This document shows positions 44,119 to 46,737 of a stretch of 64,000 bases of DNA, in pieces. The notes below the pieces were generated by a model. That model was given only the letters and a program-made list of their open reading frames with translations, was not told the DNA's origin and did not search any database. The DNA comes from Burkholderia cepacia GG4. Its GTDB lineage: Bacteria; Pseudomonadota; Gammaproteobacteria; Burkholderiales; Burkholderiaceae. Where the stretch lies: positions 1,054,001 through 1,118,000 of the forward strand of contig NC_018514.1 in NCBI RefSeq assembly GCF_000292915.1, written 5' to 3'. A program made the position numbers and the translations under genes. Within the stretch, counting starts at the first letter, position 1. The number at the start of each line of letters is the position of its first letter.

Positions 44119-44542
44119 AGGATTTTTTATCGTTGGTCTCCGGCCCGATCGCCGGTGGGTCGCGCCGGCGCGCGGGCCGACGGATCGAACGGCCATTATT
44201 GGAGATCGTGCGACCGTCGATTAAGGCGCTGCACAGGAAAGGTCCTCTGCGAAATCGGCTGGAATCGCAGGGTTTCGATGCAGGGGCGTTTCGATCGAAG
44301 CGGCGCGGCATGAAGCCGCCATCGCGAACGTGTACCTCGAACGCTTGGCCGCCGCATCGGTCCAGGCGCATCGCGAATGCGTGCTCGGCGAAGCAGTGTG
44401 TACCGAGGGCAAGAACCCGATGTCTGCGTGTCCGGCACGCAGGGCGGCGGCAAGCTGGCGCTCGATTTCTGGCCCGCGAATCGAGATCGATGCTCGATCG
44501 CGTTCGTTCGAAACAAGTTGACAACCGCAATGGCAATCGGTG
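44119..44542. other. Intergenic region with porin and ilvA-leader promoters
   Basis: No gene is recognised. A perfect -35 TTGACA lies at 44518-44523 on the plus strand, but the -10 17-18 bp later (GATGCT at 44542) is weak. If used, transcription would begin close to the leader peptide's second ATG at 44555. Confidence 0.4.
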
Positions 44543-44617
44543 ATGCTTCAAGGCATGAACCGCCAAGCACTCGCCATCGCGCTGATTATTCGCACCATTC
44601 TTCGAATGGTGGGTTAG
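44543..44617 (+). CDS. Ile/Leu-rich leader peptide of the ilvA attenuator
   Basis: A 24-codon frame (or 20 codons from the ATG at 44555) ends at TAG 44615-44617. It encodes four Ile and three Leu codons, clustered as ALAIALIIRTILRMV. A ribosome stalled at the adjacent Ile codons 44585-44590 or at 44597 would cover the first arm of the pause hairpin. The position, composition and overlap with the RNA structures downstream make it a typical branched-chain amino-acid leader peptide. Confidence 0.7.
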   Translation: MLQGMNRQALAIALIIRTILRMVG

Positions 44618-44672
44618 CGCGCATCCGGTTCATGACGCAATGACGATAACCCGCCCCTGAGGCGGGTTTTTC
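44593..44672 (+). promoter_or_regulatory. Transcription attenuator upstream of ilvA
   Basis: The competing structures are all visible. Arms 1 and 2, CACCATTC (44593-44600) and GAATGGTG (44604-44611), form a pause hairpin. GGTGGGTT (44608-44615) can pair over 8 bp, with one G-U, with AACCCGCC (44648-44655) as antiterminator. AACCCGCC alternatively pairs with GGCGGGTT (44661-44668) followed by T residues as a rho-independent terminator. Low charged tRNA-Ile should favour readthrough into ilvA. Confidence 0.75.
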
Positions 44673-44712
44673 ATTTCCGCAGCAGGGCGATCAATCCCGC
44701 TCTCGGAAGGAA

Positions 44713-46737
44713 ATGACCGTGTCCTCATATCGAAGTCCAGTCGATGCTTACCCCCACTCGGGCGTGCAAGGCTTTACGCAGATCGACTACGTCAAAAAGA
44801 TTCTCACCGCTCGCGTGTACGACGTCGTGCGCGAAACCGCACTCGAGCCCGCACGCAATCTGTCGGCCCGGCTGGGGAACCCGGTCTATCTGAAGCGCGA
44901 GGACAACCAGCCGGTGTTCTCGTTCAAGCTGCGCGGCGCATACAACAAGATGGCGCACATTCCGGCCGACGCGCTCGCGCGCGGCGTGATCACCGCGTCG
45001 GCCGGCAACCACGCGCAGGGCGTCGCGTTTTCGGCCGCGCGCATGGGCGTGAAGGCCGTGATCGTGGTGCCCGTCACGACGCCACAAGTGAAGGTCGACG
45101 CGGTGCGCGCGCACGGCGGCCCGAGCGTCGAGGTGATCCAGGCGGGCGAGTCGTACAGCGACGCGTACCAGCACGCGGTCAGGCTGCAGGCCGAGCGCGA
45201 TCTCACCTTCGTCCACCCGTTCGACGATCCGTACGTGATCGCCGGCCAGGGCACGGTCGCGATGGAGATCCTGCGCCAGCACCAGGGCCCGATCCACGCG
45301 ATCTTCGTGCCGATCGGCGGCGGCAGCCTGGCGTCGGGCATCGCAACCTACGTCAAGGCGGTGCGTCCGGAGATCAAGGTGATCGGCGTGCAGACCGAGG
45401 ATTCGTGCGCGATGGCACAGTCGCTCGCGGCCGGCCGGCGCATCGAGCTGACCGAGGTCGGCCTGTTCTCGGACGGTACCGCGGTGAAGCTGGTCGGCGA
45501 GGAAACCTTCAGGCTGTGCGCTGAATACCTGGACGGCGTCGTGACGGTCGACACGGACGCACTGTGCGCGGCGATCAAGGACGTGTTCCAGGATACCCGC
45601 AGCGTGCTCGAACCGGCCGGCGCGCTCGCGGTCGCGGGCGCGAAGCGTTATGCCGAGCGCGAAGGCATCGAGAACCAGACGCTCGTCGCGGTCACGTCGG
45701 GCGCGAACATGAACTTCGACCGGATGCGCTTCGTCGCGGAGCGGGCCGAAGTTGGCGAGGCGCGCGAAGCCGTGTTCGCGGTCACGATTCCGGAGGAACG
45801 CGGCAGCTTCAAGCGCTTCTGCGCGCTGGTCGCCGATCGCAACGTGACCGAGTTCAACTACCGGATCGCCGATGCGCAGTTCGCGCACCTCTTCGTCGGC
45901 GTGCAGATCAAGCGGCGCGATGAGTCTGCCGAGATCGCCGCGAACTTCGAGTCGAACGGCTTCAGGACCGTCGACCTGACCCACGACGAGCTGTCGAAGG
46001 AGCATATCCGCTACATGGTCGGCGGCCGTTCGCCGCTCGCGCACGACGAACGCCTGTTCCGCTTCGAATTCCCGGAACGGCCGGGCGCGCTGATGAAGTT
46101 CCTGTCGTCGATGGCGCCGGACTGGAACATCAGCCTGTTCCACTACCGCAACCAGGGCGCGGACTACAGCTCGATCCTCGTCGGCATCCAGGTGCCGCCG
46201 GCCGATCACGGGGAATTCGACCGATTCCTCTCGACGCTTGGCTATCCGTCTGTTGAGGAAGGCAACAACGTGGCCTATCGCTTGTTCCTGCAGGACGAGA
46301 AGAATAAGCCGTCCGGTCCGTTGCCGCAGCCTTCGAGTTCGAGCTCCGCGACGCCGACGCCGAACGCATCGTCGAACGCACCGCTCTCACCGTCGCCCGG
46401 TGCGACGACACCGCCGGCGCAGCCGAACGCGTCCGCGACGCCGTCCGCATCGTCGACACCTGGTGCGCAGCCGGCGCAACCGTCGCAACCTCAGACGAGT
46501 TCGCCGAGCGCGACGCCGCTGACGGTAAATGTGGCACCCGGAGATGCGTTGTGGACGATCGCCGAACGTCACGAAGGATCGCTGCTTGCCGCGGCGCATG
46601 TACCGCCCGACGAACAGCAGCGGATGTCGGACGGTCAGCGCATCAACGTCGCGCTCAACGAGATCCTGCAGCTCAACGGGAACCTGGCGGGCAATCCGGG
46701 TGCGATCGATGTCGGGCAGCAGGTCATCGTCGGGTGA
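44713..46737 (+). CDS. ilvA: Biosynthetic threonine deaminase (IlvA) with C-terminal LysM domain
   Basis: Residues 1 to about 525 form a complete threonine ammonia-lyase: the PLP Lys is K72 in FSFKLRGAYNK, and two regulatory ACT-like repeats follow (VFAVTIPEERGSFKRFCALV and LFRFEFPERPGALMKFLSSM) for Ile feedback. Where other IlvA proteins end, a Ser/Pro/Ala-rich linker of about 75 residues leads to a LysM-like module (VNVAPGDALWTIAERH, then ILQLNGNL and IDVGQQVIVG). No signal peptide is present, so the LysM would be cytoplasmic. The ATG is only 2 bp after GGAAGG, so the in-frame GTG at 44719 may be the true start. Expression is probably attenuated by the leader just upstream. Confidence 0.9.
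   Translation: MTVSSYRSPVDAYPHSGVQGFTQIDYVKKILTARVYDVVRETALEPARNLSARLGNPVYLKREDNQPVFSFKLRGAYNKMAHIPADALARGVITASAGNHAQGVAFSAARMGVKAVIVVPVTTPQVKVDAVRAHGGPSVEVIQAGESYSDAYQHAVRLQAERDLTFVHPFDDPYVIAGQGTVAMEILRQHQGPIHAIFVPIGGGSLASGIATYVKAVRPEIKVIGVQTEDSCAMAQSLAAGRRIELTEVGLFSDGTAVKLVGEETFRLCAEYLDGVVTVDTDALCAAIKDVFQDTRSVLEPAGALAVAGAKRYAEREGIENQTLVAVTSGANMNFDRMRFVAERAEVGEAREAVFAVTIPEERGSFKRFCALVADRNVTEFNYRIADAQFAHLFVGVQIKRRDESAEIAANFESNGFRTVDLTHDELSKEHIRYMVGGRSPLAHDERLFRFEFPERPGALMKFLSSMAPDWNISLFHYRNQGADYSSILVGIQVPPADHGEFDRFLSTLGYPSVEEGNNVAYRLFLQDEKNKPSGPLPQPSSSSSATPTPNASSNAPLSPSPGATTPPAQPNASATPSASSTPGAQPAQPSQPQTSSPSATPLTVNVAPGDALWTIAERHEGSLLAAAHVPPDEQQRMSDGQRINVALNEILQLNGNLAGNPGAIDVGQQVIVG

Follow-up and report, generated by a model that had tools for sequence, protein, structure and literature searches.

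The leader region of the ilvA gene in the window (the whole 64-kb stretch of DNA analysed here) is very probably an isoleucine-specific attenuator, in which a translating ribosome governs transcription and the leader start codon is furnished with a clamp. The region had been predicted to hold a complete attenuator before ilvA, and leader, pause hairpin, antiterminator, terminator and -35 hexamer were all found where they had been placed; the layout is that of an amino-acid attenuator, the textbook arrangement which the original prediction had invoked. The features are listed below.

44518..44523, + strand: -35 hexamer TTGACA
44542..44547, + strand: -10 hexamer GATGCT
44554..44555, + strand: predicted transcription start, 7 nt past the -10 hexamer
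44555..44617, + strand: leader peptide ORF, 20 codons, MNRQALAIALIIRTILRMVG and stop, probably leaderless
44555..44562, + strand: clamp 5' arm (helix 0), AUGAACCG, from free fold and covariation
44582..44670, + strand: match to Rfam RF00624 (P9), 53 bits (gathering threshold 43), E 1.8e-8 over the window
44585..44590, + strand: Ile-Ile codons AUU AUU, likely sensing codons
44593..44600, + strand: arm 1, pause hairpin
44604..44611, + strand: pause hairpin 3' arm, overlapping arm 2
44608..44616, + strand: arm 2, antiterminator 5' side, GGUGGGUUA
44626..44633, + strand: clamp 3' arm, CGGUUCAU, between arms 2 and 3
44647..44655, + strand: arm 3, antiterminator 3' side, UAACCCGCC; 44648-44655 also terminator 5' side
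44661..44668, + strand: arm 4, terminator 3' side, with a U tract to 44671
44713..46737, + strand: ilvA, threonine ammonia-lyase (TIGR01124, 805 bits); an additional LWXIA/LysM-like domain at the C-terminus

Leader peptide, promoter and alternative helices

Leaders were parsed in 56 of 58 loci, 12 of them in a kinase class and 44, window included, in an Ile-peptide class; loci L121 and L123 lay outside the terminator pattern of that parsing and were read separately. The 44 leaders form one family and are hence not 44 independent observations, and three of them (L126, L127 and L136) precede a kinase gene.

The window leader has isoleucine codons at 44576, 44585, 44588 and 44597. Counted from the stop, codons -10, -9 and -6 are AUU in all 44 leaders (window included), so that the peptide repeats the codon for the product of the regulated pathway; the ilvA genes downstream of these leaders prefer AUC (530 AUC vs 81 AUU). 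Codon -6 is inside the pause hairpin, and a ribosome with its A site on AUU 44585 or 44588 would, with the footprint assumed, cover arm 1. In the free fold of 44576-44623, bases around GCGCUG ahead of AUU-AUU pair just past the stop codon, so that the pause hairpin is extended and the Ile-Ile codons fall in one of its internal loops; the invariance of AUU at these codons may come from this placement.

The leader had been described as rich in both isoleucine and leucine, of which the four isoleucine codons stood. Leucine is not conserved, being found in 23 of the 44 leaders at codon -11 and in nine at codon -5. An ilvGMEDA-like attenuator answering to isoleucine, leucine and valine together would find a basis in the leucine codons (CTC, CTG, CTT) and the one valine codon of the window leader, but conserved regulatory codons for leucine and valine were not found: leucine varies as stated, and the invariant valine at codon -2 lies within the hairpin arm past the stall point. 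Multivalence was rejected on this codon conservation and is very improbable. The conserved regulatory codons thus appear to be those of isoleucine, not of the branched-chain amino acids in general, and the proposed control by charged branched-chain tRNA narrows to isoleucine.

The promoter is conserved together with the leader start. In 44 of 44 Ile-type leaders, window included, TTGAC lies 35-37 nt ahead of the AUG (exactly 36 nt in 33). A occurs at -12 in 41 of the 44, T at -8 in 42 and C at -1 in 38, and conservation is much lower in the region between -35 and -10 than at these positions. The two hexamers are 18 nt apart in the window and 17 nt apart in most of the 44 leaders; the window -10 agrees at three of six positions, and this promoter was absent from the output of the promoter scan. 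Shine-Dalgarno-like words at -18 to -4 were found in none of the 44 leaders, as compared with 7.75% of random window positions and with 30 of 39 downstream genes, for which a slightly wider stretch was counted. The 24-codon leader of locus L140 still has its -35 hexamer 37 nt from the AUG, which shows the start codon tracking the promoter. Both marks of a leaderless ORF, a 5' end placed at the AUG by the promoter and the lack of a Shine-Dalgarno word, were thus present (44/44 and 0/44). The conserved promoter points to a transcription start at the leader AUG or 1 nt before it, and the ORF 44555-44617 is probably leaderless. In B. cenocepacia a start site exactly at the start codon has been described for 72 genes, and part of the tRNAs are among the leaderless transcripts (PMC4603805).

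A leader start at ATG 44543, as originally predicted, was rejected: 44543 is within the -10 hexamer 44542-44547, and it is for the ATG of the 44555 type that the promoter distance is fixed, in every one of the 44 leaders with that of the window among them.

The kinase-class leaders of Burkholderia (n=12) have TTGAC in no case; they show TTGCTC-like bases at -36, TAT[TG]CT ending 7 nt ahead of the AUG and a Shine-Dalgarno-like word in one of 12. Among a further 28 leaders TTGAC was found at 35-37 nt in 13 (L148-L152, L157, L158, L168-L170, L176-L178), the other 15 having a looser -35 word (five), the word at 39 nt (one) or none (nine), and a Shine-Dalgarno-like word in one.

Helices 1:2, 2:3 and 3:4 are mutually exclusive, and the last is a terminator with a U tract. 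Arm 2 with the leader stop codon had been predicted to pair over 8 bp with the first terminator arm; the pairing was found, with a different extent. It comprises nine pairs, one of them U-G (44608-44616 with 44647-44655), and arm 2 takes in only the first two bases of the stop TAG (44615-44617). Mononucleotide shuffling (2000 rounds) matched the pause hairpin six times, the antiterminator 15 times, and the terminator, and with it the three together, never.

Pairing was tabulated for 88 leaders; this table contains many near copies and one row in a wrong register (L159), and its counts rest on folded hairpins and so lean towards the structure. Hairpin 1:2 shows double changes, one position being A-U in 60, G-C in 23 and G-U in three leaders and another U-A in 62 and C-G in 20. 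In this hairpin 17 of 88 leaders leave one middle position open, and at the two end positions of the table 20 and 79 leaders do so. In helix 2:3 one pair is U-G in 62 leaders, C-G in 23 and U-A in two, and the matching terminator pair (3:4) becomes A-U in two of 88. In 26 of 88 leaders the seventh antiterminator pair, formed by the base that follows GGYGGG, is non-standard. Arms 2 and 3 scarcely vary within the family, and covariation is therefore thin in them.

Conservation in relatives had been set beforehand as one of two tests of the prediction and was observed, the isoleucine codons being kept in the 44 leaders and the arms in the 88. On the other, the place of the transcription start, the conserved promoter bears indirectly, through the start that it predicts at the leader AUG. 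By these comparisons conservation in relatives is the stronger evidence, ahead of the shuffle statistics. The element could in principle be a mere terminator of upstream transcription, with the ORF and the pairing due to chance, and terminator-like sites are indeed common by chance here (two found vs 2.1 expected); given the outcome of the shuffles and the conservation of leader codons and arms found in several genera, the probability of this is practically negligible.

Start-codon clamp and proposed mechanism

Positions 44555-44562 are perfectly complementary to 44626-44633 and paired with them in the free fold of the window leader. This complementarity was missing from the original prediction, and it falls outside the Rfam P9 model. 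The partner varies by lineage yet follows: AUGAGCCG goes with CGGCUCA in locus L009, ACUCGG with CCGAGU in L013, and in L138 AUGUCUCGUUUCG pairs with CGAAACAGACAU with one bulge.

The pairing energy of leader nucleotides 1-16 with their own spacer was compared with that for permuted spacers. A first set of 49 leaders (the 44 and five more) was thinned by similarity to 31, 17 and 10 representatives, with means of -10.15, -10.19 and -10.57 compared with -7.6 to -7.7 for permuted spacers. The own-spacer mean was reached in none of 20,000 permutations; for a control stretch (nucleotides 17-32), used with this first set only, p was 0.17, 0.14 and 0.54. In a second set, without the control stretch, 23 of the further 28 leaders were taken (17 after thinning), and again none of 20,000 permutations reached the observed mean, either for nucleotides 1-16 (-7.53 vs -5.49 in the 17) or for nucleotides 1-24; L158, L164 and L176 of this set showed little clamp pairing. 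The kinase-class Burkholderia leaders (12, of which 11 distinct) showed no difference between own (-8.99) and swapped (-8.88) spacers; being near copies, they are uninformative on the clamp. Minimum-energy folds by themselves are unconvincing for helix 0, with at least four pairs in 47 of 49 leaders and in 150 of 245 shuffled-spacer folds. The case for the clamp rests on the permutation tests, which indicate a co-varying pairing of the first ~16 nt of the leader with the spacer that separates arms 2 and 3.

We propose that transcription begins at the leader AUG or beside it, and that a ribosome starts on the bare 5' end. With charged tRNA-Ile scarce, the ribosome would stall at AUU-AUU (44585-44590) and cover arm 1; arm 2 would then pair with arm 3, no terminator would form and ilvA would be transcribed. 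With isoleucine plentiful, the ribosome would reach the stop codon and cover arm 2, arms 3 and 4 would pair as the terminator, releasing a short transcript that ends near 44672. If no ribosome has loaded, or the ribosome has gone, the leader 5' end would pair with the spacer 44626-44633, burying the start codon and fixing the pause hairpin, so that termination would be favoured in this case too. The clamp would close the start once the spacer has been made, so that the leader would be translated only by a ribosome that loads on the 5' end as it emerges; the clamp might also stabilise the released RNA.

Constrained folds, for which ribosome footprint lengths were assumed, were examined for these states. 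With RNA made to 44656 and bases to 44600 blocked (stalled ribosome), the antiterminator formed (-17.6). A ribosome placed at the stop (to 44628) left arms 2 and 3 unpaired with each other and the terminator without a competitor, and with no ribosome and RNA made to 44656 the clamp and the pause hairpin formed (-31.9). When the whole leader had been made, the terminator won even in the stalled state (-22.2); the antiterminator must therefore act kinetically, with timing deciding. The logic as modelled is that of isoleucine attenuation with termination as the default. With such a clamp, the leader of a leaderless attenuator would have a single chance of being translated, linked to its transcription.

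Genes behind the leader and distribution of Rfam family P9

The ilvA gene of the window is an additional copy; the other replicon carries one as well. In this genome (G000, the window being on contig 2 of 2) an ordinary ilvA on contig 1 scores 825.9 bits and the window copy 806.2 bits; the ordinary gene has no isoleucine leader upstream, as judged by eye. About 100 nt upstream of the contig 1 ilvA, locus L039 has a stretch (AAACCCGCC..GCGGTTT) that is somewhat like the P9 terminator, without a U tract, and is perhaps a relic of a P9-type element.

Two details of the window gene may be added. Its true start is perhaps the in-frame GTG 44719 rather than ATG 44713; the GTG is suspected because AAGGA lies only 1 nt from the ATG and because L015 retains the GTG without the ATG. 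The C-terminal extra part of IlvA (~150 aa) consists of a Pro/Ser/Ala linker and the LWXIA/LysM-like domain (NF012230, 110.6 bits). This part is absent from 12 other IlvA frames read to the end, and tblastn detected the domain in none of the other fetched loci, many of which end before the gene does.

RF00624, "Pseudomonas sRNA P9", was the sole Rfam match at the gathering threshold in the window and spans the full model, which has 74 positions and is typed by Rfam as a gene. Livny reportedly described P9 for the first time in 2006, as an sRNA of P. aeruginosa. Its consensus begins AuuAUUAUUACCGCCAuUccuguuaUGGCGGGuUAG, readable as I-I-I-T-A-I-P-V-M-A-G-stop. The best three matches in the phylum sample, L148-L150 (83-86 bits), come from another family of the class; their leaders, for example MTSTVLRCQPSIITAIPYLAG and stop, are followed 43-45 nt on by a gene recognised by eye as ilvA. 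With a peptide-like consensus and ilvA-like genes behind its best matches, P9 itself looks like an ilvA leader.

P9 matches were counted at E up to 0.001, in overlapping samples and with stricter filters, by which weak matches are lost. They were found in 35 of 65 genomes of the genus (20 above the cut-off), 87 of 299 of the family (69 above), 34 of 398 of the phylum (18 above) and 20 of 369 of the class (four above), and in none of 14 control genomes. The 38 places in the genus are of two kinds by score. All 18 at 53 bits or more (L001-L018, all read) are before ilvA; the lower-scoring kind has 20 places, none above 44.4 bits, and the 12 of these that were fetched and read (L019-L030) all stand before a P-loop kinase gene. 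Genomes G001, G050 and G057 have one place of each kind. The class scan gave 20 new loci, of which 13 were read, four with isoleucine leaders (L176, L177, L178, L193) and nine chance-like. Among the 28 phylum loci read, L174 and L175 were chance-like and L154 stops at a contig edge; one further phylum locus, illegible in part, is left out of the count. Plasmid records gave three Cupriavidus matches, two of which were inspected and have no gene annotation in that stretch.

At least one ilvA was present in 64 of the 65 genus genomes. Comparison of P9 and ilvA positions by eye showed two ilvA copies of at least 794 bits in 14 genomes, with P9 just upstream of one copy in 14 of 14. P9 is ahead of the only ilvA found in G037; in G038, G042 and G054 it lies where the contig ends, with the beginning of ilvA behind it; the remaining 47 genomes have no P9 match at any ilvA. 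Four of these 47 (G043, G056, G063, G064) also carry another ilvA-like gene, a more distant one of 660-673 bits that has no P9 match at it.

Named ilvA loci were searched over up to 350 nt upstream in the best 80 of 592, among which the best named IlvA relatives were those of B. cepacia and B. territorii (89%). An Ile-rich ORF with a terminator-like hairpin was present in four of these 80 (L045, L052, L094, L106), of which only L045 and L052 showed, by eye, a P9-type peptide and terminator. The other named loci seem to be ordinary ilvA, and the element seems to mark extra or selected copies. A tree was made of 107 IlvA proteins, 28 of them attenuated; it leaves out loci that were found at a later stage or lack a gene label, and a length or motif filter removed 11 further attenuated rows. 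The attenuated label required five changes on this tree (at least three by starred branches) vs 24.9 in shuffles; the attenuated copies are clustered and do not form one clade.

The Rfam label suggests that the element might be chiefly a trans-acting small RNA, its place before ilvA being incidental. P9 is filed as a gene, termination in the leader would yield an RNA of ~118 nt, and there is an attenuator RNA, rnTrpL, that is able to act in trans (PMC7298713). Yet the 18 genus loci of the Ile-peptide class precede ilvA (three of them at contig edges with the first part visible), the conserved sequence reads as a peptide with isoleucine codons that do not vary in 44 leaders, and in the loci read a same-strand gene starts within ~100 nt downstream, the stretch in which genes were sought. 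A chiefly trans-acting role is in our view highly unlikely.

Similar leaders also precede other genes. Six representative target proteins were run against Pfam and NCBIfam, and the others were assigned by eye. AAA_33 P-loop kinases (~170 aa) stand behind L019-L030, L126, L127, L136, L159, L161-L165 and L193; three tested scored 105.8-111 bits (cut-off 27), with no NCBIfam match over the cut-off. The L164 kinase is weakly like the homoserine kinase model (22 bits, cut-off 197). In L126, L127 and L136 the full ilvA-type peptide end IIRTIPGMVG-stop precedes the kinase, which indicates that one leader has been joined to a different gene; in L159, L162 and L165 Ile-Phe replaces Ile-Ile.

A second kind of P-loop protein is found behind L152, L157, L158, L168-L170 and L178; the one tested is weakly like a DNA topology modulation protein (65 bits, cut-off 215). 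Six of these seven leaders end in Pro-stop (e.g. ..RIIIIP-stop), so that the stop precedes arm 2 instead of lying inside it, a variant layout. SnoaL-like proteins (~135 aa) follow L155, L156, L160, L166, L172, L173, L176 and L177, and probably L153; two tested were above the Pfam cut-offs. Most leaders at these loci are Ile-rich (IITTIAPMVG-stop, LIIILAILRNGRVS and stop), L173 having no Ile pair.

Such non-biosynthetic targets (kinase, SnoaL-like) would fit an element that senses slowed translation in general, for instance under drugs that target the ribosome or Ile-tRNA synthetase, and one kinase has a likeness to chloramphenicol phosphotransferase-like proteins that remains below the cut-off (17.8 bits, cut-off 22). 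The conserved isoleucine codons and the ilvA target, on the other hand, fit isoleucine supply directly, and a general sensor is quite improbable. Going beyond the window, P9 may be not an sRNA gene but a widespread and portable proteobacterial isoleucine-sensing module, leaderless and clamped, that controls ilvA and at least three uncharacterised families; we regard this wider reading as evenly balanced between acceptance and doubt. If true, AAA_33 kinases, topology-modulation-like P-loop proteins and SnoaL-like proteins would join the isoleucine-starvation response. The leader as read here suggests what an Rfam family filed under sRNA genes probably does, and predicts how that RNA arises; it also links several families of small proteins, their role unknown, with isoleucine supply.

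Comparison with known systems

In searches of CC-licensed PMC papers, the titles and abstract openings listed mention no ilvA attenuator of Burkholderia or Pseudomonas and no tie between P9 and ilvA. A survey of bacterial premature terminators that speaks of leader peptides names neither ilvA nor isoleucine in its main text (PMC2965389), and ilvA is not named in the main text of a P. aeruginosa transcriptome study (PMC3460626). In B. cenocepacia 82 5' UTRs giving short transcripts have been described, in a main text from which ilv is absent (PMC5688073). What is known already is the kind of attenuator, and the motif is present in Rfam under an sRNA label. New, as far as this analysis shows, are the reading as a cis-acting isoleucine switch, the predicted leaderless start, the co-varying clamp and the use before unrelated small genes.

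The window element shares sequence and structure with Rfam P9 from the AUU-AUU codons to the terminator. The Rfam model leaves out the leader start, the promoter and the clamp, and the element here reads as a cis leader.

In enterobacteria ilvGMEDA and ilvBN have a leader peptide, a pause hairpin, an antiterminator and a terminator before isoleucine-pathway genes, and the window element has the same layout. It differs from them in a response that its codons predict to be to isoleucine only, in its short peptide, in having no Shine-Dalgarno word, in standing before a single extra ilvA and in its start-codon clamp.

Locus L167, before a thrA-like gene, is probably the known thr leader. The thr operon leader likewise has Ile/Thr codons, a G-rich leader end and a terminator, and the P9 model matches L167; target and codon make-up differ, and the P9 score of L167 is weak (32.4 bits).

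A parallel for the predicted 5' end is the trpL attenuator of Sinorhizobium meliloti, whose RNA rnTrpL begins with the ATG of trpL, so that the leader peptide is leaderless (PMC7298713). The RNA thus starts at the ATG of the leader ORF, as predicted for the window leader. The trpL leader senses tryptophan and the window element would sense isoleucine; the likeness noted here is one of layout.
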